Assembly: GCA_030692375.1 (NCBI GenBank)
Contig: JAUYCD010000140.1
Span: 1-32,170 of the forward strand
Source: Candidatus Latescibacter sp.
GTDB taxonomy: Bacteria; Latescibacterota; Latescibacteria; Latescibacterales; Latescibacteraceae
Direction: 5' to 3'
DNA length: 32,170 nt
Part shown: in pieces, positions 8,602-22,666 of the stretch
Numbering within the stretch: the first letter of the stretch is position 1
How the letters are laid out: every line of letters starts with the position of its first letter
Made by a program: the position numbers and the translations under genes
Notes under the pieces: generated by a model
Database searches by the model: none
Told to the model about the DNA's origin: nothing
Seen by the model: only the letters and a program-made list of their open reading frames with translations

Positions 8602-10290
8602 TCACCGCTGCTCCCAGGGGGCGTATTGACCGGATACGCCGGCGTGACGGCCGAACCTGAGAGGTGGATTCCCGCGCTCGAACGCACCCAGGTCTGGTTT
8701 GCTTCCCTTAAAATCATCGTTGAAGTTTGGGATGGTTATTCCCGCGTCGACAGCGGGATTGGGTACAGTTACCACCTTGTCGGTGACTGACAGTTTCTTG
8801 CCGTCATGCACGGTCGTTGTAAGCCCCCACTCAATTTTCGAGGTGGTCGGCGCGAGGTAGAATTCGATTCCGTTCGCGGGGATAAAGGACGGCTTCCCGT
8901 GAATCCCGTGGCTCTCGTAACCGGGAACGAGCGGTATGCCGTTGAACAGGTCGTAGTCGAGATCGCTGGGAATCGCCGGCTCACGGGTGCCTGTGAGGGT
9001 TCCCGGACAGTCGAAGATGTTGTTCCTCGATACTACGTTTGTACAGGGGTGGCTGCTGAACACACTGAAAGCGCCCCGAGGCTGCAAGGCTGTGTTGTGG
9101 AAAATATACCGCCTTCCGCCGATGTAGGGGTCGCGCTCGCCGAGCTTGATCATGCTGCCGCCGAGGGGGTCGAGATGCGTCCGGCGGCTGACGCCGAAAA
9201 TATTCCTGAAGATGTACAGCGGGCCTTTGGAGGTGACCGCTGTGGCGACATGCTGGTACGTATGGTGGAGGTAATTTCCCCAGATGCGGACGTTCATGTT
9301 GGCGCCCTCGCTCTCAATAGCATCGTCCCAGGTATTCGAGATGATATTGCCATAAATGTCTGAATCCCGGCAGGGGCTGCCCTCGAAGCTGTAATTGTCG
9401 CCGCCGCCGAACCCGTCGTTGAAACCGTGATCTTCTGTCGATCGTATCTCGTTGTACCGGATGATATTCCCACCTTTGGAATTTATGAGAGTGATCGCCT
9501 GCGGGCCGTTGGGATGGCCGGCGTCCCAGTCGTTCGATGCTCCACGGGGATTCTCCATCAGATTGTTCTGGATAACGAGCCCGTAAGTCCCCGATTCCGC
9601 GAACACAGCGCTGTCGGAGCCTCCGAGGTTGCCGAAGGAGCGCGGGCCTCCGCCCCTTCCCCAGAAAGTGAACCAGCAGTCCTCGATGACCACATCATGG
9701 ACACCTTCCTTAATCAGAATGGCGTGAATGCCCGCGTTTTTCAGAACCAGCCCCCTGATGATTACATACGACGATTCTACGATGATATTGTAATCGGCGA
9801 AATTCTCGGGGTCGAGGACAGTCTTGGCCCCATCAGCGGGGGTAACCAGATGCCATGCGTTGGGAGCGCCCGCTTCGGAGATTCGGAGGGTCTTGTCGGT
9901 CGTCCCATCCGGGAGAAACGTCGTTTTACCTACCGGGAAACGGTCGCTGCGGGTCCGTGCTTTCATGGCGACCTTTTTCCCGCCGCAATTGAGAATGAGT
10001 TCGTAAGAGGTGTCGGGAGTGAGACCGACGATGCTTCCGCGGAATTCATGATCCCGGATATCGAACCAGAGGGGGAATCCTTGTTTCCAATCCTTCGTTC
10101 CTTGAGCGCGGAAGCTCATCGCGCACTCGCCGGGGGAATCGGTATCGACCTTGTAGTAAATGCCCAGACATTCAAAGGTTGGCGCAGCATAGGGATTTTC
10201 GCCCGCCGGTATAACGAATCCCTCTGCAAAAGCAGAGAATCCCGTTATGGCGGCCAGAAGAATAGAGACTGAGGTTGATTGCAGTTTCAT
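8602..10290 (-). CDS. Secreted right-handed parallel beta-helix protein
   Basis: The 562-residue protein has a clear signal peptide ending AFA at about residue 22. A short beta-sandwich-like part follows to about 130 (fibronectin-like YYKVDTDSPGECAMSFRA ... TSYELILNCGG). Then comes a long series of turns typical of the pectate-lyase or PbH1 beta-helix superfamily: YVIIRGLVLKNAGIHAILI, VVIEDCWFTF, LVIQNNLMENP, IIRYNEIRS, DIYGNIISNTWDDAIES, VRIWGNYLHH and LYIFRNIFG. Such proteins bind or cleave polysaccharide outside the cell; no substrate can be assigned. The start is supported by GGAG 9 nt upstream. Next on its 5' side is a gap with two family A repeats. The plus-strand reading frames across this gene are shadows produced by its G/C-rich codons. 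Confidence 0.88.
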   Translation of the reverse strand: MKLQSTSVSILLAAITGFSAFAEGFVIPAGENPYAAPTFECLGIYYKVDTDSPGECAMSFRAQGTKDWKQGFPLWFDIRDHEFRGSIVGLTPDTSYELILNCGGKKVAMKARTRSDRFPVGKTTFLPDGTTDKTLRISEAGAPNAWHLVTPADGAKTVLDPENFADYNIIVESSYVIIRGLVLKNAGIHAILIKEGVHDVVIEDCWFTFWGRGGGPRSFGNLGGSDSAVFAESGTYGLVIQNNLMENPRGASNDWDAGHPNGPQAITLINSKGGNIIRYNEIRSTEDHGFNDGFGGGDNYSFEGSPCRDSDIYGNIISNTWDDAIESEGANMNVRIWGNYLHHTYQHVATAVTSKGPLYIFRNIFGVSRRTHLDPLGGSMIKLGERDPYIGGRRYIFHNTALQPRGAFSVFSSHPCTNVVSRNNIFDCPGTLTGTREPAIPSDLDYDLFNGIPLVPGYESHGIHGKPSFIPANGIEFYLAPTTSKIEWGLTTTVHDGKKLSVTDKVVTVPNPAVDAGITIPNFNDDFKGSKPDLGAFERGNPPLRFGRHAGVSGQYAPWEQR

Positions 10291-10529: not shown

Positions 10530-13500
10530 TCATCTGAAGCATATCCGGCAGAGCGAATAACTGGAGCAGAATGTGCAGCGCTCCGTGCGGTTCGGGCTGA
10601 AATCACCGGCATCGAGCGAGGCTATCGTTTTCGTAAGGAGTTGTGAAATTCCGGCGATGCTTTCCTCGAAGCATGGAATATCGCGGGTGAGTCCCGGAGT
10701 GAGAAAATGGAGAATCAGCCTGGAGGGAAGAATATCTTCCGCATACCACACCGCCAAAGCATAAATCTCCATCTGTACCTGATAACGATGTACAAGGTCC
10801 TCCACATCCTCCGGCAGGGCCGCATCGGTTTTGAAATCGATGATCATCACGCGGTCACCGGTTCGAACTTTCAGGTCCATTGTCCCCCGCACCAAAACGT
10901 CATCATGCACAAACGCGAACGGCTCTTCCTTCCTCAGCTCTTCCGCCCCCGCAATCACCCGGCAAAGATCGCTCCCGATGAACCTGCCGAGATGATCTTT
11001 AAGACTATTTCGGAGCTCCGGCGTCAATTCTCTTTCTGCAAGCTCATCCACGATTGCCGGAAGAAGGTTTCCGGTACGGTAATCCCAACGTTCGAGTGCA
11101 CGGTGCGCCAGAATGCCATACTCGAATCCCAGGCTTTCCCCATGCTCCCTATGCAGAAAAGGGTCCAGGCCGTATATGTGCTTGAAGAGATAGAGAGCAG
11201 GACATTTCAGGTAATCCATTACCTGGGTGGGACTGAGTGTGTCCGGCTTCCCCTTATACCGCAGGGGCAGAACGGGGGAAAACAACAAATCTGCCGGAAG
11301 ATTCGGAGTGGGAACATCTTTTCCGGCATCGAGAATGGATTGCCATGTATCTGATCTGCGGTCCGGCTTTTTTTCCTTATGATCCGTGATTACACGGCAG
11401 GTAAACAGATCCCCCGGGCTGTCGGGGCCGGGTTCCCCTTCCGGCGAGAGCGAAAGCGCGCTTTCGAGCCAGCCCAACCAATTGTCCTTCTCATACCAGG
11501 GGTCCCCATTTTTAGAGGGCTTTTTCCCGGTAATAAACAGGTAATCCTCCGCTCTCGTGCAGGCGACATAGAACAGCCGCTTGCTTTCCGCCAGCTCCTT
11601 GCGTTTTTCCAGCTCAGACGCCACAGCGCTGGTCATCATTCTGACCGTTTTACCGGAAAGCGTCCGATAACTGAAACCGGGACCGAGCTCGTCATGGAAA
11701 ACAAACGGATGCGGATTATTCCGAGTCCTGGAGGCGCTGTCGGCAAGGAAGACAACCTTGTATTCCATTCCCTTGGCTTTGTGAATAGTAATGATGCTGA
11801 GCGCATCCCCGCGGACTTCCAAAGTTTCAACAGAATCTGTTCTCATCTCCCCGCTCTTGAGAAGGCTGGCGAATTCGCGTAACTTGCCGCCCTTCGCCTC
11901 GAAATTATCCGCTGTCCGAAGGATGAGATCGAGAATGGCCAGCGACATCTCCCCACGGAGCGGGTCCGCCAGAAGGGTGAGTGTGTATCCGGTTTCACCG
12001 AACGCCATTTCGAGCAGTTCACGGATTGTTTTACGGTCACGGAACGCGAGAAGATTTCCGAGGATTTCCCGGATACGGGAAATGTCTTTACCTTGGGACC
12101 ATTCTTCCCGAGAAATATCTTCAGTGAGAAACGCATCCGCCAGAGAACCGCTTTTCCCGGCCAGCAGCCGCAGGCCATAGAGAACATCGGCATCCAATCC
12201 GCATAAAGGGGACAGGAGCACGGCGGTGAAGAGAACCTGGTCTTCGGGATGAGAGAGCCAGCCCAGCAGGTTGGCGATATCGCATGCTTCGGGACTGGCG
12301 AGCGGATTTCCCCCGGCCAGATTTACAAAAGGGATGCCCCGGCGCAGGAAAGCCTCCTCATATCTTCCGGTCTGAGTCCCTTTACGGAGGAGAAGTGCCA
12401 TCTGCCCGCAGGAATAACCGTATGTTTCCCGCAATTCCTCAGCTTTTGCGGCAATAAAATCACCTTCCAGGGAGCGGCAGGCATCCGCATTCCCCGCATC
12501 GAACACCACAATCTCTACAGGAGAGCAATGGTCATTCCCCTTCCGGTACGATTTCATATCCGAATAAACGGCATCGAAAGGGTTTTCCGGGTCATCCCGG
12601 CCCATTATCCGGCCGAAAGTATGATTGATGAAGCCGATAATCACCGGAGTACTCCGGTAATTGACCTTGAGAGGTTTGAAGTCCACGCTCGGACGGGCGG
12701 TGAATGCATTAAAAACAGCCACATCCGCCCCGCGGAACCGGTATATGGATTGTTTCGGATCCCCGACGGTAAACAGTTTCGCCGAAGAATTCCCGGCAAT
12801 CATCCGTAGAATGTCAAGCTGAAGGCTGTCGGTATCCTGGAACTCATCCACGAGAATATGTTTGAACGAACCGGACACTTTCCGGCAGACATCTGCATGA
12901 CGGCGGAGCAGACGCCAGGTTTCGATCAGGGTATCGTCATGGTCAAGGTACGACTGCGATTTTTTCAACCGGAGGAAATGCTCATCGAGTTTCACATATT
13001 CCTCGATCAGGCAGGAAACCACCAGGGGTGTGATGTCCTTTTCCTGGCGGTAGTAGGAGCTGACAAGGTCGAGAAATTCCAGATACTCCCTTATCCCGCC
13101 TTTCACCTGTTCGGCGCTGATGCCCTGATCCGTCCAGGCATCCTTTATTTTTTTGTTCAGACGGGGCAGCTTTGGCGGTATCAGTGCAATCACTTCCCGA
13201 AGGAATGCCTCATCCACGCGGTCATTTTCAACCATTTCCCTGATCTGTACTGAGCCTTCAAGTATATCGGGAAGCATACTAGAGAGGCTGTCTTCACCTG
13301 GGCGGATGGCATGAAAATCCCGTAATCTCGTTTCGAAACTCTCCAGATTTTTCAGTATAAACTGCCGGTATTGGGACCGTAGTATTTCAGGAGAGGGAAC
13401 TCCATGCACGTCCAGCCATTTTACCACCTCCACCCGCCGGGAAAGGAGCTGGGTGAGAATTCGCCTCAATCCCTGGAAACCGAGCGCCCGAACGAGAATA

Positions 13501-13967
13501 CCAATACGCTCGGGATCCTCATCGAGACGGGATTTGAGAAATCCGGACAAAGCCTCCGCCTGAAACCGCGAGGAAAAGGTATCATCCAGGATTTCAAACT
13601 GCGGATCGACTCCGGCCTGCACGGGATAAGCCCGCAGGATATTATTACAGAAAGCATGGATGGTCGAAATGGGGGCGGAATAGATTTTTTCCGCCGTTTC
13701 ATGCCACAGTGCGGCGGTATCAGGATACTGTTCAGCCAGTTCCAAAGCTTTCTGAGCGATACGGGCTTTCATCTGGTCGGCGGCCTTGTTGGTGAATGTA
13801 ATGGCGGCTATTTCTGAAAGAGAAATCTGTTCGCTGTTCACCAGGTAAAGGTATCTTCCCACCAGGACCCTTGTTTTTCCGGAACCTGCGCCTGAGCAGA
13901 CTGCCACCTCGTCCGCCTGTGACGTCGCGGCAAGTTTCTGTTCGCTGTCCAGGTCACGAATCGGCAT
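10530..13967 (-). CDS. addA: AddA helicase-nuclease subunit (RecBCD-type double-strand break repair)
   Basis: AddA is the 3'-5' motor and nuclease of the AddAB complex, which processes DNA ends for recombination and destroys foreign linear DNA. The 1145-residue protein has UvrD-type helicase motifs: Walker A GAGSGKT at 26-32, ITFTNKAADQMKARI, VDEFQDTDSLQLDIL (motif II), GDPKQSIYRFRGADV, ITIHKAKGMEYKVVF, and LFYVACTRAEDYL. The C-terminal PD-(D/E)XK nuclease has GTMDLKV, IIDFKTD (ending about 1049) and YQVQMEIYALA. A four-cysteine set (LKCPALYL, then CTFC-x5-C at the C-terminus) suggests an iron-sulfur cluster of the kind better known in AddB. The ATG at 13967 is used because GGAGG lies upstream and the protein then starts MPIRDLDSEQ, normal for the family; the open frame to 14207 runs into addB. 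It overlaps addB by 14 nt. Confidence 0.95.
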   Translation of the reverse strand: MPIRDLDSEQKLAATSQADEVAVCSGAGSGKTRVLVGRYLYLVNSEQISLSEIAAITFTNKAADQMKARIAQKALELAEQYPDTAALWHETAEKIYSAPISTIHAFCNNILRAYPVQAGVDPQFEILDDTFSSRFQAEALSGFLKSRLDEDPERIGILVRALGFQGLRRILTQLLSRRVEVVKWLDVHGVPSPEILRSQYRQFILKNLESFETRLRDFHAIRPGEDSLSSMLPDILEGSVQIREMVENDRVDEAFLREVIALIPPKLPRLNKKIKDAWTDQGISAEQVKGGIREYLEFLDLVSSYYRQEKDITPLVVSCLIEEYVKLDEHFLRLKKSQSYLDHDDTLIETWRLLRRHADVCRKVSGSFKHILVDEFQDTDSLQLDILRMIAGNSSAKLFTVGDPKQSIYRFRGADVAVFNAFTARPSVDFKPLKVNYRSTPVIIGFINHTFGRIMGRDDPENPFDAVYSDMKSYRKGNDHCSPVEIVVFDAGNADACRSLEGDFIAAKAEELRETYGYSCGQMALLLRKGTQTGRYEEAFLRRGIPFVNLAGGNPLASPEACDIANLLGWLSHPEDQVLFTAVLLSPLCGLDADVLYGLRLLAGKSGSLADAFLTEDISREEWSQGKDISRIREILGNLLAFRDRKTIRELLEMAFGETGYTLTLLADPLRGEMSLAILDLILRTADNFEAKGGKLREFASLLKSGEMRTDSVETLEVRGDALSIITIHKAKGMEYKVVFLADSASRTRNNPHPFVFHDELGPGFSYRTLSGKTVRMMTSAVASELEKRKELAESKRLFYVACTRAEDYLFITGKKPSKNGDPWYEKDNWLGWLESALSLSPEGEPGPDSPGDLFTCRVITDHKEKKPDRRSDTWQSILDAGKDVPTPNLPADLLFSPVLPLRYKGKPDTLSPTQVMDYLKCPALYLFKHIYGLDPFLHREHGESLGFEYGILAHRALERWDYRTGNLLPAIVDELAERELTPELRNSLKDHLGRFIGSDLCRVIAGAEELRKEEPFAFVHDDVLVRGTMDLKVRTGDRVMIIDFKTDAALPEDVEDLVHRYQVQMEIYALAVWYAEDILPSRLILHFLTPGLTRDIPCFEESIAGISQLLTKTIASLDAGDFSPNRTERCTFCSSYSLCRICFR

Positions 13968-16878
13968 ATTCACTCTCCTCCCCGGAGATTTCCCTTCCTC
14001 CCCTGCATAGCAGGCGAAAATCACACCAGCGGGAATCTCTGCACTCGCCGGGAGGATACTCCCCCCTCCGTATTCTACCAACCGATGTGTGTGCGCTCTC
14101 ACAGGCCATCCGGATATATTCCGCCCAATCATCGCCTGTAACGGGCTTCCTTTCGGCTTTATAGCAGACATGGGCCATCTCGCGCAGGTTATAGAATACA
14201 CCATCATGGATGCTGCTGCCCGGAACGATCTGCTCAGTCGCCGCTTTCAAATAAAGAGGCGCCTGGAGGGCCTTACCGGAAACCAAATCTGAAAGCGATG
14301 CTTTGCAGTCTCCGGTCTTGTAATCTATGATACGGATACGGGGAGGCGTTTCGTTCGCATCGATGTCGATACGATCGATGCGGCCTGAAACCAGGACCAG
14401 GTCGCTTCCTTTTTCAAGACGAAGCGGAGGATATGGAGTTGCACAGGAGAAACTTTCAAGCCCGAAACCGGTCTCAAGAAAGAAGGGCCGAAAAGGTGCG
14501 GAGGAAAAGTATTCGGCCTCGTTTTCGAGAAAATATTCCATCCAGGCAAGAAGGAATTTTTTCTCGGCCAGCATCACCACCGGATGGAGTCCTGCAAAGG
14601 CATCGGCCTTTTCCGCGAACACCTGCCCGCTGATTTCCCTTATCAGGCTCTTCATGTCGTTGAGTTCATCCCGGCTGAAACCCGCCCGGCCCAGAGAGAT
14701 GCACCGCCGGTAAAACCGGGCCAGGATTTCATGGATGAGGATGCCCCGGTCAGACGCTTCCACCTCGCCGATAGTTTCCCTATCCACCCGAAGCCGGAGA
14801 ATACGGGCGAGGAAGAACCTGACCGGGCAGGAGGCATATTCTTCCAGTTCGGAAACGGAATACACCCGCCCGCCTCCCCACTCCCGGCTGACCGATTCGA
14901 GAAGAGCCGGGCTCTCAAGGATAAGTTCAGGTTCTTTTTGCATCCTGCTCCAGACGGCTAAAGACAGCTCCAGGCGGGCTGCGGCGGACTGGTCCCTCCT
15001 GCGCTGACCGGCGAGAATGACGGGGGCAAGTTCCGGATTCGCTTTCATCGCACGAATGATCTGCTCATCCCTGCCGCGGCGGTCGCAATACCCTCCCTCC
15101 CAGGCAGCGCCGGGGACTCCGCGATGAAAAGCATTCAGGCACCATGAAGCCGTATTCCCGCGAATCTCCCTTAGATAGGGTGAAACGGCCGGATCCCCGC
15201 CCTCATTGTCGATGCCGGGGAATGTCAGAAATAATTGTTCCGCGCCGTGCATGGACAGGTAAAAGAGGAGACTGTCCTCAGATTCGGCGTGCTTAAGCAT
15301 CTCACGGGCGTATACCGGATCATGGAGAGAGAAACCGCCTTGTCTTCCGGCGAAAGGCCTGTTATCCAGACCAGTGAGAAACACGATCCTGCGGGTGGCA
15401 TAACGGGCATGGTTCACGTCGGCCAAAAGCACCCCTTTTCCTGCGCAGGGCTGTTCGATAATGAAGGCATCCCGGAGAAACAAAACGAGAAGGCGATGCA
15501 ATTCAGTAACTTTCACCATTTTACGAAGGGGGGAATAGAACCGGGCGAATGCATCGAGAAGCTCCTTTAGGCGCTCGAATGCCGCGGCTTCCGAAAGCGC
15601 GCACTCAGGGTCTCCGCCGCCGTCCAGATTATTCCGGATGTTGAGCCATTCGATCATTCTCTTCACACTGGATATGAAGCCTTCGGGAGAATCAATATCG
15701 GCAAGCATGCAGCTCCAGCCGCGGTCATCCGTCTCCGGGCCGGCGGGTGTTCCGGTTTTCCGTGTCCGGTCGCCGGTGTATTGCGAGGAGAGAACTCCCG
15801 CCGCCAGCTCATCGTCATCCGGGTGAATGGAGGACTGGATCGCATCGAGAACGACCCTAACCACGGGATGAGTGGAAAGCGGACGCCGAACTCCTCCTTC
15901 CACTTGAATCCCATTCTTCCGCAGGGCGATGTCCAGGGGAGTTCCATAGCCCGGCCTTGACCGTGCGACAATCATGATGTCATGATGTTCCCAGATACCC
16001 CGGGCGATCTTATCCCGTATGAAGCCCGCGATCCACCCGGCTTCGGCTTCTTCGCTGCGAAAGGTATGAATCTGCACATCGCCGGGAGTTACGGTCCCTG
16101 TCCAGGTTCCGCCGCGGAAACCCCGCACGACCACACCTGTACCGCCTTCTTTTTTGGAATCTACCCGGACAACCCTCCCTCCCAGCTCTTCCAGACGGGA
16201 ACGGAGTTTACCGGGCAGGTCAAAAAGTTGAGGCCGCGAAGGATCATCCGGAATACTCACCGCGCTCCGGCTGAAACCGGCCATGAGCCGGGAGATGAAC
16301 TGAAACTGCCTCTCGGTAAGGTCATAGAAACCGTGGGCGATGAGCGGCCCACCGAACCCCTGTGAGAACCGCTCCGCCCGGTCGTCCGAAAGCGCCATCA
16401 TCACTACGCCTTCATGGTCGGCGGCCCGGAGCCGTTTCAGGTGCACATCGTACGCGGCGGCGACAGCCTCTATTTCACGGGCGCGGATGAAGGTTTTATC
16501 CGTGCTGCGGATATCTGCAAGATACAAAAGAATGGTATTGATAAAACCGGGATACCCGGCAATTGTGGAATAATAGGAGCTCCGGCCGATACGGCTCGCT
16601 GCAAGCTCTCCGGCCAGGGCTCGTTTTACCGGGGGATCTATCATTTCGGCAGCGACACCGGCTTGAGACAGGATGGCCAGAGCAAGTCCCTCCATCGTAT
16701 AGACCCGGTGGCCGGTGAATCCGTTTCCGGATAGCACGGCCAGTTTCCTCTCCAGTGCGGCAACCGAGCCGCTGTCGGGAACCACGGCGCAGACCGGCCC
16801 CAGACGGAGGGGGGTCCGTTTCAAAAGGGCGTCGAGATTGGCTTCCGGGTCGGGTCCGGCAAAGATGGTAAGATTCAT
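13954..16878 (-). CDS. addB: AddB-type PD-(D/E)XK nuclease/helicase-like subunit
   Basis: AddB partners AddA in DNA end processing and Chi recognition. This 974-residue protein has an inactivated-helicase look. Its N-terminus (TIFAGPDPEANLDALL) lacks a Walker A GxGKT/S, while the body keeps the family layout, for example GFYDLTERQFQFISRLM near 185-200 and LADVNHARYATRRIVFLTGL near 490. The C-terminal nuclease is intact: SCPVRFFLARIL, ILIHEILARFY, VSGRIDRIDID, RIIDYKTGD (ending about 857), QAPLYLKAA. Cysteines in SCPVRFF and in CRDSRWCDFRLLC near the end are placed to hold an iron-sulfur cluster, though their spacing is C-x5-C-x5-C instead of C-x2-C-x5-C. Its end overlaps the addA start, so the two are translationally coupled. 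The ribosome site before 16878 is weak. Confidence 0.93.
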   Translation of the reverse strand: MNLTIFAGPDPEANLDALLKRTPLRLGPVCAVVPDSGSVAALERKLAVLSGNGFTGHRVYTMEGLALAILSQAGVAAEMIDPPVKRALAGELAASRIGRSSYYSTIAGYPGFINTILLYLADIRSTDKTFIRAREIEAVAAAYDVHLKRLRAADHEGVVMMALSDDRAERFSQGFGGPLIAHGFYDLTERQFQFISRLMAGFSRSAVSIPDDPSRPQLFDLPGKLRSRLEELGGRVVRVDSKKEGGTGVVVRGFRGGTWTGTVTPGDVQIHTFRSEEAEAGWIAGFIRDKIARGIWEHHDIMIVARSRPGYGTPLDIALRKNGIQVEGGVRRPLSTHPVVRVVLDAIQSSIHPDDDELAAGVLSSQYTGDRTRKTGTPAGPETDDRGWSCMLADIDSPEGFISSVKRMIEWLNIRNNLDGGGDPECALSEAAAFERLKELLDAFARFYSPLRKMVKVTELHRLLVLFLRDAFIIEQPCAGKGVLLADVNHARYATRRIVFLTGLDNRPFAGRQGGFSLHDPVYAREMLKHAESEDSLLFYLSMHGAEQLFLTFPGIDNEGGDPAVSPYLREIRGNTASWCLNAFHRGVPGAAWEGGYCDRRGRDEQIIRAMKANPELAPVILAGQRRRDQSAAARLELSLAVWSRMQKEPELILESPALLESVSREWGGGRVYSVSELEEYASCPVRFFLARILRLRVDRETIGEVEASDRGILIHEILARFYRRCISLGRAGFSRDELNDMKSLIREISGQVFAEKADAFAGLHPVVMLAEKKFLLAWMEYFLENEAEYFSSAPFRPFFLETGFGLESFSCATPYPPLRLEKGSDLVLVSGRIDRIDIDANETPPRIRIIDYKTGDCKASLSDLVSGKALQAPLYLKAATEQIVPGSSIHDGVFYNLREMAHVCYKAERKPVTGDDWAEYIRMACESAHTSVGRIRRGEYPPGECRDSRWCDFRLLCRGGREISGEESEYADS

Positions 16879-17012: not shown

Positions 17013-17338
17013 ATGGAAGGATGACCGGGAAAAAGATTTCCTGGCCATCCCCTATATTTTTACATCAATATTTTGTAACTCTTTATGATGCTTATCTTTC
17101 CACGAAAATATATTCTTGAAAATATTCTCTGGTTCAAGTCCTCGTGAAGGACTAATCCCCCCTGTCCTTCGGACATCCCCCCTTGTTAAGGGGGGAATCA
17201 TGTTAGCAGGCAGCTTTTACCCCCTTAATAAGGGGGTCGCCGCTTTATGCGGCGGGGGGATTTTATCTAAAGAGAAGATAAGTGATATGGCATGCCTATC
17301 GCCGAATAAAAAATGGAAGGATGACCGGGAAAAAGATT
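17013..17338. repeat. 26-bp perfect direct repeat, copies exactly 300 nt apart
   Basis: The same 26 bases (beginning ATGGAAGGATGACC and ending AAAGATT) occur at 17013-17038 and 17313-17338. The 274 nt between them hold two family A palindromes. The first copy also forms the loop of the 17002-17050 stem. The flanks of the two copies differ. Confidence 0.85.
17155..17262. repeat. Two tandem repeat family A units
   Basis: The first unit (17155-17197) reads ATCCCCCCTGTCC, loop TTC, GGACATCCCCCC, TTGTTAA, GGGGGGA, matching the copies at 10366-10492. The second (17220-17262) is CCCCCTTAATAAGGGGG followed by the stem CGCCGC, loop TTTAT, GCGGCG and a run of G. They sit between the two 26-bp direct repeats. 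Confidence 0.75.
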
Positions 17339-17550
17339 AGTCCTTGCAAATCAGTAAAATTTCATATTTTTTTAAACTATTTTCTTTTTTCGGGTGTCAA
17401 ACAGGCATAAAAAAGAAAGACAAGGCGAAGGGTGACAATAACCGGAACCGGGGAAAAACACGATTTATACAGAGCTTCTCATCGAATACCGGAAAATATA
17501 AATGTATATCCCGGTTTCCACGAAAACTTTGAAAAAGGAGAATGAAAACA

Positions 17551-18651
17551 ATGACTCGTAAAAGACTCTTTTCGTTCCTGCTCTTTTTCACTCTGCTGAT
17601 TATTCTGGTTGCGGCAGTGGCTCAGACGCAGGTGCAGAGACCGAAGGCAAACTTCGTTGACCGTATTTCCGCCGTGCTGGAAAAGGCCGGCTGCCCGCTT
17701 TCTCAGCGCCAGCTCGATGCGATTGCAAAGATCACGCCCGGACCGGACGCCCGTGGCGCCATGCAAAAGATTCTGAGCGATGACCAGAAAAAAGCCCTGC
17801 AAAGCGCGCTGAAACAGCAAAGAACGGGGCTTCAACTGAGAGGGATGGCGCAGAGACTAAAAGCAGCGGGTATCCCGCTCACCGATGACCAGATCGCCAA
17901 GATAAAAGCGCTCAAACTCGGCGAAGGAAAGGGCGCTCTCCAGTCCATCCTCACCGCCGATCAGGTGAACGCGCTGAAAAAGGGAGCAGGATTGAAACGT
18001 GAGCGTCTGGTTATTGGCGGGATCGCCGTGCAGCTCAAAAAAGCCGGATATCCGCTCTCCGTAAGACAAATAGCACAAATCAAGAATTTGGTAAAAGGAG
18101 CAAAATCCCGCGACGCACTCATGAACATCCTCACTGCAGAGCAGAAAGTCGCGCTCAAGAAGCCTTTCGTGGACAGGCTGGCAGCAAGATTAAAAGCTGC
18201 CGGACAGCCGCTTTCTGATGAGCAATTGAAATCCATCAATGCTATTATGCCTGGTAAAAACGCCCGTGAGCAGGTGAAAGCTATCCTGACTTCCGAACAG
18301 GTTTCCGCCCTGAAAAAAAGTATCAGCGAAGCCGCGCCGAGCACAGGAACTACAGATAAAGCGACTGCGGCAGGTGAAACGCCCAGGGTGTTCAATGCTC
18401 TTAAACCGAATTATCCCAACCCGTTCAACCCCAGCACCACAATCGAGTACAGTATCGTCCAGCCGGGGAATGTCCGGGTGCAGATCTTCGGCATCAACGG
18501 CCAGCTCATCTCCACCCTGGTGGACTCCTACCAGGCTGCGGGCTGGCACAGCGCCACCTGGAACGCCGGGAACCTCGCCGGAGGCATGTATATCTGCACT
18601 GTCACTTCCGGCGGTTTCACCCAGTCAAGGAAAATGACCCTGCTGAAATAA
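17551..18651 (+). CDS. Secreted protein of four helical repeats with type IX secretion sorting domain
   Basis: The protein has a signal peptide (LFSFLLFFTLLIILVAAVA), then four degenerate repeats of about 50-60 residues, then an Ala/Thr-rich linker, then a C-terminal T9SS type A sorting domain. Each repeat reads roughly LKxAGxPLSxxQLxxIxxL, then a Gly-containing turn with a basic or acidic pair, then ALxxILTxEQxxALKK; clear examples start at AGCPLSQRQLDAI, AGIPLTDDQIAKI, AGYPLSVRQIAQI and AGQPLSDEQLKSI. The tail has NYPNPFNPSTTIEY, VRVQIFGINGQLI, AGWHSATWNAGNLAGGMY and a final KMTLLK. It should cross the outer membrane by T9SS and be anchored or released. The LTxxQ rhythm recalls Spy/CpxP-like helical proteins, but no homology is claimed. 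The ATG at 17551 is chosen because GGAG lies 10 nt upstream; the ATG at 17542 is too close to it. A strong terminator follows. Confidence 0.88.
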   Translation: MTRKRLFSFLLFFTLLIILVAAVAQTQVQRPKANFVDRISAVLEKAGCPLSQRQLDAIAKITPGPDARGAMQKILSDDQKKALQSALKQQRTGLQLRGMAQRLKAAGIPLTDDQIAKIKALKLGEGKGALQSILTADQVNALKKGAGLKRERLVIGGIAVQLKKAGYPLSVRQIAQIKNLVKGAKSRDALMNILTAEQKVALKKPFVDRLAARLKAAGQPLSDEQLKSINAIMPGKNAREQVKAILTSEQVSALKKSISEAAPSTGTTDKATAAGETPRVFNALKPNYPNPFNPSTTIEYSIVQPGNVRVQIFGINGQLISTLVDSYQAAGWHSATWNAGNLAGGMYICTVTSGGFTQSRKMTLLK

Positions 18652-18688: not shown

Positions 18689-18714
18689 AGGAGGGGGATT
18701 TGTCCCCTCCTTTT
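18689..18714 (+). terminator. Rho-independent terminator after the T9SS-tailed gene
   Basis: AGGAGGGG at 18689-18696 pairs perfectly with CCCCTCCT at 18704-18711 around a 7-nt loop, followed by TTTT (through 18714). It lies 38 nt after the stop codon. Confidence 0.8.
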
Positions 18715-18992: not shown

Positions 18993-19754
18993 TTACAGCC
19001 CCCCGATCGGAAGCTGTCCCACGGAATACGGGACAAAAACCCCCGCTTTCAGATTCTTAATCGCAGCGTCTATGACCGCCTGCCCGCCTTTCATGCAGAA
19101 GAGGCCGTGCCCCGGAAAGAGGCTGTCGATGCCGAGACCGCCCAGACGGGGAAGGCTCGCGTGGTAATCAAGCAGGTTCGACCCCGGATAGTTGAGGAGG
19201 CCGAGGACTCCACCCCAGAAGAACATATCGCCGTCGAACATGCACCTGAGACCGTCCAGTTCCATGAGGTAGCATACCGAATCGGGCGAATGGCCGGTTA
19301 TGTTCAGCGCGGTGATATGGACTCCCCCGATATCGAATTCTTCGGCGTCGCTGACTGCATGATCCACCGGGCAGTGTATATAGAAGTAGTCGGGAGCGTA
19401 GAGGCCGCAGGCTTTGGCGTCGTTTACCCAGAGTTCCTCGTCATTCCCCTGTTCGAGCATGTACTTTCCGACATTCCCACTGATCCATACCTGGCACCCG
19501 AACCGGTCTTTGAGCGCCTTTGCCCCACGGGCATGGTCGGTATGGTGGTGGGTCAGGAGAATGTGGCTGATTTTCTTCGGATTGAATCCTTCCGCTTTGA
19601 TGGAACCGATAAGGCCCTCGGTGTCGTAGCCGTTTCCCGCATCGATGAGAAAGATCCCCTTCGGCCCTTTGATCAGGTAAATATGGCAGTCGCCGCCTTC
19701 GGTCAGCCCCAGGGGGGTGTCGCCGACCAGGTAGATTGATGGTGTAATCCGCAT
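18993..19754 (-). CDS. MBL-fold metallo-hydrolase
   Basis: The 253-residue protein has the metallo-beta-lactamase superfamily signature THHHTDH at 68-74 (H-x-H-x-D-H), preceded by IFLIDAGNG at 34-42. Further metal ligands are in ITGHSPDSVCYL, MFDGDMFFWGG and the closing LFPGHG. It should be a cytoplasmic di-zinc hydrolase of the glyoxalase-II or lactonase-like branch; the substrate cannot be read from sequence. The ATG at 19754 is chosen over the longer open frame to 19868, because GGAGG lies 7 nt upstream and the protein then begins MRITPSIYLVGD, normal for the family. It is divergent from the transglutaminase-like gene across a 146-nt A/T-rich gap. Confidence 0.88.
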   Translation of the reverse strand: MRITPSIYLVGDTPLGLTEGGDCHIYLIKGPKGIFLIDAGNGYDTEGLIGSIKAEGFNPKKISHILLTHHHTDHARGAKALKDRFGCQVWISGNVGKYMLEQGNDEELWVNDAKACGLYAPDYFYIHCPVDHAVSDAEEFDIGGVHITALNITGHSPDSVCYLMELDGLRCMFDGDMFFWGGVLGLLNYPGSNLLDYHASLPRLGGLGIDSLFPGHGLFCMKGGQAVIDAAIKNLKAGVFVPYSVGQLPIGGL

Positions 19755-19900
19755 GGCTGTTCCTCCGCTGAAAGTGAAAAAATTGTGTGGTTTATGTCGA
19801 AATATAACATGTATCTTACAACGAAGAAAGTAAGTATCATACGAATCAGTGGTACAGACAATATTCAAAATATACTTTTTAACAACGGAGGCTGTTTGAT

Positions 19901-22666
19901 ATGATTTATTCCGTTATTAAACTAAAGAGCGCCGCCTGGCTCTTATCCATTATAATTGCCTTCTCTTCTCCTTGCCTTGCCCAGAAGAAACCAACTGTCC
20001 CGGATATCAGCACCACCATCGCAGAGGACATTTCCGATTTCACATGGGCGCGGGTCTCATTTCGTATAAAACCGCCAACTAAAGAAGCGATCCTCTGGTT
20101 CTACGCCTATCAGTACTATGACAATTCCCTCCCGCTCCGTATCGAGGTGAACGGACACGCGGCGGCGTACAACTCGGAAAAAGGGAAGGGCAAGTTTATC
20201 TGGCATAAAACCAACATTCCGGCTAATTACTTTTCCCCGGGAGTCAACCGGATTGTTTTCAGAACCGATTCATCGGCAACAAATTCCTGGGCAATAGGGG
20301 CGGAATGGGCGGAAAACCCCCGGGGCAGCGCCAAATCCTCCAACCGCGGCAAAAGCTGGTACACCGCCAATCTCGGGTATAACTACAGCCTGGTGGGAAA
20401 TTATGCCGTCCGCCTGACCGATGGCGGAGGAAATGCGCTGGCAGTGACTCTTCTCGAGCCGGAAAAAGGAAAAAGGCCTGTTGCACGAGCTTTCTCGCCG
20501 AAAGTTGATCCATTTCCCGCCGGGAAAGGACAATTTGAGGCATTTTCTTTTGAACGGTCCTTTTCCGGGAAAGAACTGTTTGACTGTCCGCGCGACACGC
20601 ACATTGAAACAGACGGGAATCTCCCGATTTTCCGGCTCAAGCGCGGCGAGTTGATCAAGGACGAGGACGGCAACGCCCAGTTCAACATCGACCGCACTGC
20701 CTTCGAGCGAACAGATTCCCTCAAAGTGCCCTGGTGGCTCGGAGAGCAGGTGACCGACACCGTGTGGATAAAAAAAGTGCTGGAATTGAAAAATCCGGAG
20801 ACTGATAAAGCCGCCCTGATGTTCTTTTACGAGATTCAGGCCCATTATCCGCGAAAAGGCGGCTACTGGAGCGTCGAGGGCGGCTCGCAGTCGCCGCTCC
20901 ATGTCATCATCAACGGAACCGAGCTTCCCCCGATCAAACCGGACATCGGATACCGCAACCGTACCGAAGACTGGCGTCAGGTGGACTTTCCGCCCGGTCT
21001 CCTGAAGAAGGGCATCAACACTGTGGTCATGCACGCAGAAAAAGGCGGAGACTGGCGGTTTGCATACGAGAATTCCGTCTCTCCCAACCGGAGCGCACGG
21101 AGCATGGACGGCGGAAAAACCTGGGACTACAACCGCCTCGGCGAAAACCGTAACGAAAACGGCGAATACCTGGTTCGTTTTCTCCTGGACCGCTGTCATG
21201 AACAGGGAATGGTCTGGTCGGCGTCAATCGCCCTCTGGGAGAAAGACGGGAAGGGTTTTCTCACGCCTGTGAAGAATCTCGAAGTATCCGTTACTCTCGA
21301 AGGCGAGACTCCGGCGGGCGCTATGTTCCGGCCGCAGGTCAGGTTCGGGACGACGCCGGTTCCCGGGGAGGATTCCTGGACTGACTGGGGAGAACCTTCC
21401 TACGGGAAGAATCTTACCATGCAGGTTCCCGGACAGGATTTCCGGTACATGCAGTGGCGCGCAGTTCTCAGCACACGTTCGCTGAAAATTACGCCGCGGC
21501 TGACCGGAGTCCGCCTCATAGTAAAGGGAGAGCGCGGAACCTTCCCGGACGGGAAATATGTGACCCTTTCCTCCCTCGACAACCCGCCGCTAAGGCTGGG
21601 AAGCCTGGAAAGGAAGTATGATTCTTATGGCAACGAGATTCTCAGGGAGCTTCGGGAAAGGTATCATCTCGACGATGTGGTGAAAGACGGGCGCACAGAG
21701 CTGGAAAAACTGGCACTCCTTGCTTCCTGGGTCCATGAGTCCCGTTTTTCATCGGCGAAAGAGGGAGAACAGCACCGCAGTAAAAACGGCATCGATAGCC
21801 GCACCACACACTGGGCGCCCAACAACGCGCTCTGGGCTTTGAACATGTTCAGCCGCGGTTACGGCCACCTGGACAGACGGTTCGGCTCTCACTGTCATGA
21901 TTACAACAGCGCTTTTGTGGGCTGCTGCGAGGCGCTCGGATTTGTCGCCCGCCCGCTCATCATGACCCGTGCGGAATCAGCGCTCGGAGGTCACAGTTTC
22001 CCCGAAGTCTGGTCCAACGAATTCAACCGGTGGATTTTAGTCGACGCTTACGTGAACGCTTATTATCTCCGTGATGACGGCGTCCCGGCCAACACCATGG
22101 AAATCCACGAAGCGCAATTCGATTCCACCCTATTCAAGCGCATCTCCACCTTCCAGATGGACCGTATCTCTTCTCCTGCCCGGAAAGCCGCCGGGGACGC
22201 CTACAAACCCCAGGTGAAGGAATGCCCGCGCGGGTATGAATCCTTCGGCATCTGGCTCCGCTCCGATCTCATGAATGAACCGGCGCCCTATCCAATCTGG
22301 GACGGCGTCCACTCATTCCGCTGGGATGGCCGTCTCTGGTACGACGATCCGCGCGCGCAGTCATTCGCCGAATTCAGCCGCTACTCGAACCGTGCGGACG
22401 ACCTGTACTTTTCTGTGAACCAGTGTTTCATCAATCCGGAATACCGGGGAGGCGACTTGGTGGTTATCAGGCTCTCACATACCATGCCCAATTTCCGGTG
22501 CTATGAGGTGCGGTTCGACCGCCGGGGGGAATGGACTGAATACCGGAGCGATTTCCCGGTCAAACTGCATAAAGGGGAAAATGTCATTGAAATCCGGCCG
22601 GTCAATCTCTGGGGAATAAAGGGCGCCGCAAGCACGGTGACAATGTCGAATAAGCTGCCGGGGTAA
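19901..22666 (+). CDS. Large secreted protein with duplicated sandwich domains and a transglutaminase-like core
   Basis: The 921-residue protein has a signal peptide (SAAWLLSIIIAFSSPCLA, about 27 residues). Two related beta-sandwich-like segments follow. Segment one, about 45-165, contains PLRIEVNG, SPGVNRIVF, SNRGKSWYTANLGYN and VGNYAVRL. Segment two, about 290-430, contains PLHVIINGTEL, KKGINTVVMHAEKGGDWRF, SMDGGKTWDYNRLGEN and NGEYLVRFL. Residues about 600-760 form a transglutaminase/protease-like core with a full Cys-His-Asp triad: C665 in SHCHDYNSAF, H698 in GGHSFPEVW, D715 in WILVDAYVN. The C-terminal part is another beta-rich domain. Such proteins act on peptides or sugar-linked peptides outside the cell; the substrate is unknown. 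GGAGG lies 9 nt before the ATG. A MITE-like element begins just after the stop codon. Confidence 0.87.
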   Translation: MIYSVIKLKSAAWLLSIIIAFSSPCLAQKKPTVPDISTTIAEDISDFTWARVSFRIKPPTKEAILWFYAYQYYDNSLPLRIEVNGHAAAYNSEKGKGKFIWHKTNIPANYFSPGVNRIVFRTDSSATNSWAIGAEWAENPRGSAKSSNRGKSWYTANLGYNYSLVGNYAVRLTDGGGNALAVTLLEPEKGKRPVARAFSPKVDPFPAGKGQFEAFSFERSFSGKELFDCPRDTHIETDGNLPIFRLKRGELIKDEDGNAQFNIDRTAFERTDSLKVPWWLGEQVTDTVWIKKVLELKNPETDKAALMFFYEIQAHYPRKGGYWSVEGGSQSPLHVIINGTELPPIKPDIGYRNRTEDWRQVDFPPGLLKKGINTVVMHAEKGGDWRFAYENSVSPNRSARSMDGGKTWDYNRLGENRNENGEYLVRFLLDRCHEQGMVWSASIALWEKDGKGFLTPVKNLEVSVTLEGETPAGAMFRPQVRFGTTPVPGEDSWTDWGEPSYGKNLTMQVPGQDFRYMQWRAVLSTRSLKITPRLTGVRLIVKGERGTFPDGKYVTLSSLDNPPLRLGSLERKYDSYGNEILRELRERYHLDDVVKDGRTELEKLALLASWVHESRFSSAKEGEQHRSKNGIDSRTTHWAPNNALWALNMFSRGYGHLDRRFGSHCHDYNSAFVGCCEALGFVARPLIMTRAESALGGHSFPEVWSNEFNRWILVDAYVNAYYLRDDGVPANTMEIHEAQFDSTLFKRISTFQMDRISSPARKAAGDAYKPQVKECPRGYESFGIWLRSDLMNEPAPYPIWDGVHSFRWDGRLWYDDPRAQSFAEFSRYSNRADDLYFSVNQCFINPEYRGGDLVVIRLSHTMPNFRCYEVRFDRRGEWTEYRSDFPVKLHKGENVIEIRPVNLWGIKGAASTVTMSNKLPG

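Follow-up and report, generated by a model that had tools for sequence, protein, structure and literature searches.

The window, a 32,170-nucleotide stretch of Candidatus Latescibacter sp. DNA, encodes a 366-residue protein (17551-18651, forward strand) in which a putative signal peptide is followed by four repeats, a linker, and a C-terminal type IX secretion system (T9SS) type A sorting domain. The first-pass observation holds up, and its interpretation is supported in part. Judged from sequence comparisons, the repeat appears to be a compressed, tandem, and exported unit of one Latescibacterota family that is either related to the Spy/CpxP unit or resembles it. We propose, with a probability of roughly 0.4, that the protein is an exported array of shortened LTxxQ units, with multivalent, holdase-like binding outside the outer membrane.

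Gene and repeat unit

The longest form of the open reading frame extends from 17542 to 18651 on the forward strand and encodes 369 residues. In our reading of the sequence, a GGAG at 17537-17540 precedes the ATG at 17551 by 10 nt and the ATG at 17542 by just 1 nt; owing to this spacing, the start at 17551 given in the first-pass annotation is preferred over the alternative at 17542. The putative signal peptide (17551..17622), assigned by eye, comprises the hydrophobic residues 9–27 followed by a probable cleavage site between AVA and Q. Repeats 1–4, each helical and about 54 residues long, are located at 17659..17820, 17839..18000, 18016..18177, and 18172..18333 on the forward strand, and score 78.3, 67.1, 72.2, and 71.0 bits, respectively, against the hidden Markov model A2. 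The linker between the repeats and the tail (18334..18411, forward strand) is a low-confidence region, with pLDDT values below 50 over model residues 236–271. An intrinsic-terminator-like hairpin (18689..18711, forward strand) lies 3' of the gene as a consensus match only, and nine such terminator-consensus sites were found in the region against 3.5 expected.

All six repeat pairs score between 68 and 104 in pairwise comparison, above the maximum of 51 from 1000 shuffles, which confirms the four repeats proposed in the first-pass annotation. The protein contains eight L[ST]xxQ motifs, two in each repeat. The alignment of 24 repeats (A2) yields the consensus ILEKAGCPLTxxQIxxIKxLxPG...ILxxxQxxALK, in which Pro13, Gln18, and Gln43 are invariant in all 24. 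The motif glutamines are 25 residues apart in 18 of these repeats and 24, 27, or 28 residues apart in the other six. The first-pass annotation had recognized no family in the repeat, and our searches found no strong match to any named domain, so the outcome set there as a refutation did not arise. The whole window protein gave chance-level matches only against PDB sequences, the plasmid collection contained no match, and no description of the repeat was found in the literature searched, including passages of PMC4454575, PMC8144458, PMC4791398, and PMC5063474.

The four-repeat gene stands alone. Upstream, on the reverse strand, are genes for a UvrD-type helicase with a PD-(D/E)XK nuclease domain (10530-14207) and a second PD-(D/E)XK protein (13954-16878), and a metallo-beta-lactamase-fold gene lies downstream (18993-19757, reverse strand). 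The neighborhood contains neither a chaperone or stress operon nor a regulator gene. Elsewhere in the window, an interspersed repeat about 136 bases long (17135-17270) contains an inverted pair whose arms lie at 17178-17197 and 17217-17236. A search of the genome gave 42 matches to it, of which 40 are strong (82–100% identical), and this repeat resembles a non-coding element of mobile or palindromic type. Two exported-looking proteins of 921 residues (19901-22666, forward strand) and 562 residues (8602-10290, reverse strand) match no Pfam family at E ≤ 1e-5.

Sorting tail, distribution, and architectures

The sorting domain (18412..18636, forward strand) occupies residues 291–365 of the 369-residue form and exceeds the cut-offs of both PF18962 (33.5 bits, cut-off 27) and TIGR04183 (39.2 bits, cut-off 23). 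The genome of the window (G000; 3.9 Mb, 97% complete) encodes SprA/Sov (530.8 bits, 670.6 in frame; cut-off 200), PorU (615.7 bits; cut-off 420), and PorV (264.9 bits; cut-off 90). Since all three exceed their cut-offs, the T9SS export route is real, and the tail recognized in the first reading is borne out by both the profiles and the machinery. A further 93 places in the genome match the tail of the window protein at E ≤ 2e-5, giving about 94 with the window gene; the 93 are what is left of 101 matches once the window gene itself, four matches to the repeat, and three to the tail with E values of 0.38–0.80 are set aside. The T9SS tail is ordinary in this Latescibacter genome, and the unusual part is the cargo, in which the Pfam and NCBIfam profiles detected no enzymatic domain. 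We found no literature on Latescibacter together with type IX secretion, or on Latescibacterota together with T9SS.

The A2 profile, built from the 24 repeats, was run over 64 Latescibacterota genomes, several of which are incomplete, and matched at E ≤ 1e-4 in 12 of them. Each of the four genomes from the family of the window encodes full-length repeats (27 in 13 proteins), and none of the 60 other genomes of the phylum does. In eight genomes of another family, the match covers the second half of the repeat only, from position 26 or 27, and all four proteins scanned among these eight exceed the PF07813 (LTXXQ) cut-off. The remaining 52 genomes contain no A2 match. Among the 64 phylum genomes examined, the repeat is a lineage family confined to one Latescibacterota family. 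Exact-peptide scans of genome contigs, an insensitive type of scan, detected no relative when run with the window protein, and confirmed two of 227 pattern matches when the alignment A4 was used, both in Candidatus Latescibacterota (G001 and G003, which belong to the same taxonomic family as the window's genome); given this insensitivity, these scans do not establish the absence of the repeat outside the phylum.

The repeat occurs in several architectures, of which the first-pass annotation had missed all those outside the T9SS-tailed proteins, namely the free arrays and the fusions with HlyD adaptors and an amidohydrolase. Six stand-alone proteins contain two repeats (L031, L032, L033, L057, L059, and L092), one contains three (L058, the same as L100), and one contains at least four (L054, the same as L099). 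The last is clipped by a contig end, and thus a tail may lie beyond it. The T9SS-tailed members are the window protein and L055, a repeat-plus-tail orthologue in which one repeat is good and the other decayed. The L055 tail matches that of the window protein at 36% in a BLASTP alignment that includes one repeat, and is not recognized in NCBIfam at E ≤ 0.001. L055 (6529-7257, reverse strand) has a tail motif that reads YPYPF for YPNPF, extends 19 residues beyond the usual end, and is possibly decaying. A single repeat is located at the C-terminus of two HlyD/MacA-type adaptors (L056 and L060) and at the N-terminus of an amidohydrolase (L093; NF006689, 389.6 bits, cut-off 371). The N-termini of the family members read as signal peptides, except where the member is a HlyD adaptor. 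The gene rows of the two adaptors (L056, 5405-11357; L060, 4961-10767) consist of the repeat-ended adaptor, a second adaptor-like gene, a MacB-like permease, and a TolC-like gene, and the gene for the secreted amidohydrolase (L093, 2612-4111, reverse strand) lies amid a row of amidohydrolase-like paralogues devoid of the repeat.

In the genome of the window, all 10 repeats found by the A2 profile search are in arrays, with no single-repeat protein, and none of the adaptor homologues examined there carries a repeat, indicating that the repeat has been gained or lost as a module. The neighborhoods of the repeat genes are not conserved. Two of the three stand-alone relatives in this genome adjoin amidohydrolase genes; PF01979 has 11 matches in the genome, four of which are on the contigs C261 and C128 that carry repeat proteins. 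In the repeat tree, good support is confined to three of 21 inner branches, and the tree is therefore used for two groupings only: the first repeats of the two-repeat proteins form a separate group, and the L054 repeats are near-identical. The origin of the window's array is not resolved by this tree.

The repeat domain of the window protein carries a net charge of +24 over 241 residues (+10.0 per 100 residues; pI 10.4), and contains no His and one Cys. That of L055 is second with +6 over 84 residues (+7.1 per 100 residues), so that, among the ten repeat domains for which charge was measured, the two tailed members rank as the most basic, a trend that rests on n = 2. The eight untailed stand-alone relatives range from −1.6 to +3.9 net charges per 100 residues (L100 is neutral, L099 has +3.6, and the two-repeat proteins span −1.6 to +3.9), and the strong basic charge is therefore not a family trait.

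Likeness to LTXXQ proteins and predicted fold

The window protein scores 23.8 bits against PF07813, half a bit under the curated cut-off of 24.3, and none of the eight stand-alone relatives reaches this cut-off. The 24-repeat profile was compared by hhalign with six LTXXQ proteins of the phylum, yielding a probability of 94 and a score of 43.0, in an alignment that places both motifs in order over 43 columns around a deletion. By comparison, 400 column shuffles scored no higher than 22.15, the reversed profiles 11.3 and 10.4, and five unrelated control families from the same genome set 10.6–13.1. Restricting the comparison to the two LTXXQ proteins encoded in the genome of the window gave a score of 29.6, and restricting it to the four from the other family gave 50.5. 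Against Escherichia coli Spy and CpxP, the repeat profile scored 29.2 versus at most 19.9 in 200 shuffles, with the alignment located in the second-motif region; the other-family LTXXQ proteins, serving as a positive control, scored 47.6 against the same pair. Among Spy, CpxP, and ZraP, the repeat profile scored worst against ZraP (17.2), and its best matches among 177,635 PDB sequences were Spy, albeit weak (E = 0.05). The link to Spy/CpxP, which the first-pass annotation had drawn from the LTxxQ rhythm, holds in these controlled profile comparisons, and they support the view that the repeat is related or closely alike to LTXXQ proteins. The spacing of the motif glutamines is 73 residues in E. 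coli Spy and CpxP, and 34–41 residues within the units of three LTXXQ proteins from the other Latescibacterota family. In that family, the LTXXQ proteins L095, L096, L097, and L098 each comprise two Spy-like units, and a nearby gene resembles one for an ECF sigma factor (named by eye).

Two AlphaFold2 models, one of the whole protein and one of the repeat domain, were built from a three-row alignment. Both predict that each repeat forms four helices, that the two LTxxQ-type motifs mark helix starts, and that neighboring repeats have a long helix in common. The mean pLDDT values are 64.9 for the whole protein and 77.9 for the repeat domain, with pTM values of 0.35 and 0.41, and hence the overall curvature of the models is not reliable. 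A Foldseek search with both models, which are of moderate confidence, retrieved no solved fold at E ≤ 0.001. In VIA-align, rows with Z ≥ 5 corresponded to DnaK/Hsp70 substrate-binding domains; they were matched to the low-confidence T9SS tail and were rejected, and the second model gave no row with Z ≥ 5. The absence of Spy and CpxP from the listed VIA-align rows is uninformative either way.

As a pattern, L[ST]xxQ is found generically at helix N-caps, and part of the LTXXQ likeness could therefore be convergence. In the full form of this explanation, the repeat would be an unrelated helical repeat that reuses a common capping pattern, a question of origin that is compatible with any functional reading. 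The sub-threshold Pfam score and the lack of a fold match are consistent with it, as is the better sub-threshold score against the NHLP leader model, which 9 of 24 single repeats match, compared with 4 of 24 for LTXXQ. However, the alignment of both motifs in order over 43 columns, above the shuffles, the reversals, and the five control families, argues against it, and the NHLP match spans only about 22 of 63 profile positions. We consider convergence possible, though rather unlikely. The NHLP leader itself was dropped as an identity: the whole window protein matches NF038399 (the Os1348-type NHLP leader) with an E value of 1.9e-7 and 31.1 bits, under the cut-off of 40, the best stretch (profile positions 27–48) covers part of one helix pair only, and none of the 64 phylum genomes contains a member over the cut-off. 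Since the repeat falls under the PF07813 cut-off, NHLP scores better, and convergence is a live rival, the repeat is not filed as an LTXXQ member and is regarded rather as a compressed variant.

Proposed function and comparison with known systems

We propose that the four-repeat protein would be exported first by Sec and then by the type IX system, ending at the cell surface or in the medium. In each unit, the PL[ST]xxQ and IL[STN]xxQ helix starts would build a small four-helix repeat, and neighboring repeats would stack via the common long helix. The strongly basic helical surface could then bind multivalently, with low specificity and independently of ATP, so that outside the outer membrane the array would hold proteins that are unfolded or have just been exported, or an anionic polymer of the surface. 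We infer the surface location, fold, binding, and holdase activity of the window protein, and propose, by analogy with Spy, a holdase as the most likely role, with an adhesin for an anionic polymer less likely. To our knowledge, Spy-type chaperones have been described only in the periplasm. A review (PMC8144458) treats Spy as a periplasmic protein that forms dimers and binds clients without ATP through a basic concave face with hydrophobic patches.

The function might instead be structural or adhesive, in which case the protein would have no chaperone role and would act as a stalk, or as a polycation that adheres to DNA, LPS, or anionic polysaccharide. The charge of the two tailed members, the missing enzymatic domain, and a repeat number that varies from one to four or more would suit such a surface protein; on the other hand, the charge trend has n = 2, and the lone repeats on the adaptors and the amidohydrolase are too short for stalks, which makes this reading fairly doubtful. 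Those lone repeats could also point to docking, whereby repeats would bind each other and arrays would recruit single-repeat exported proteins in a cohesin/dockerin-like manner. Single repeats on two HlyD adaptors and a secreted amidohydrolase coexist with free arrays of two to four in the same genomes, Spy forms dimers according to the same review (PMC8144458), and the amidohydrolase genes adjoining two of the three stand-alone relatives would fit as well. However, the genome of the window has a tailed array with no single-repeat partner and adaptor homologues without the repeat, and the neighborhoods are not conserved; we thus regard docking as improbable. Metal or stress sensing, as in the ZraP/CnrX-type LTxxQ relatives, seems very improbable: although in other Latescibacterota genuine LTXXQ proteins are encoded next to the ECF-like sigma factor gene named by eye, and the repeat-bearing adaptors adjoin MacB- and TolC-like genes, the window's repeat domain has no His and one Cys, the score against ZraP is the lowest, and no regulator is near the gene.

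The holdase-like array is thus our preferred reading. A broader idea, which we consider unlikely, is that a miniature, tandem-repeatable Spy-type unit arose in Latescibacterota and serves as a mobile extracytoplasmic module, comprising the T9SS-displayed, extracellular and ATP-independent holdase and single units on export adaptors and a secreted amidohydrolase for holding or docking partners. If the holdase reading is true, a Spy-like chaperone unit can shrink to about 50 residues, repeat in tandem, and pass the outer membrane, thereby providing a minimal unit for asking which part of Spy suffices for client binding, as well as a testable function for part of the T9SS cargo in an uncultured phylum. 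If the protein is merely a basic surface repeat, it would be ordinary lineage-specific cargo.

With T9SS type A cargo (TIGR04183/PF18962), the protein shares a C-terminal sorting domain over both cut-offs and the core machinery in its genome, but its cargo is a small basic helical repeat devoid of an enzyme or known binding domain. With the Os1348-type nitrile hydratase leader peptide (NF038399), the match is partial and falls on the repeat's helix-turn-helix half, whereas the window protein is exported and repeated and scores below the cut-off. The LTXXQ proteins of PF07813 (Spy and CpxP) are likewise small exported helical proteins in which every unit has a pair of LTxxQ motifs at helix starts, and the profile likeness exceeds the controls. 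In contrast to Spy and CpxP, the motif glutamines of the repeat are about 25 rather than 73 residues apart, and the unit, under the Pfam cut-off, is repeated two to four times in tandem and occurs in fusions with a T9SS tail, with HlyD adaptors, or with an amidohydrolase.
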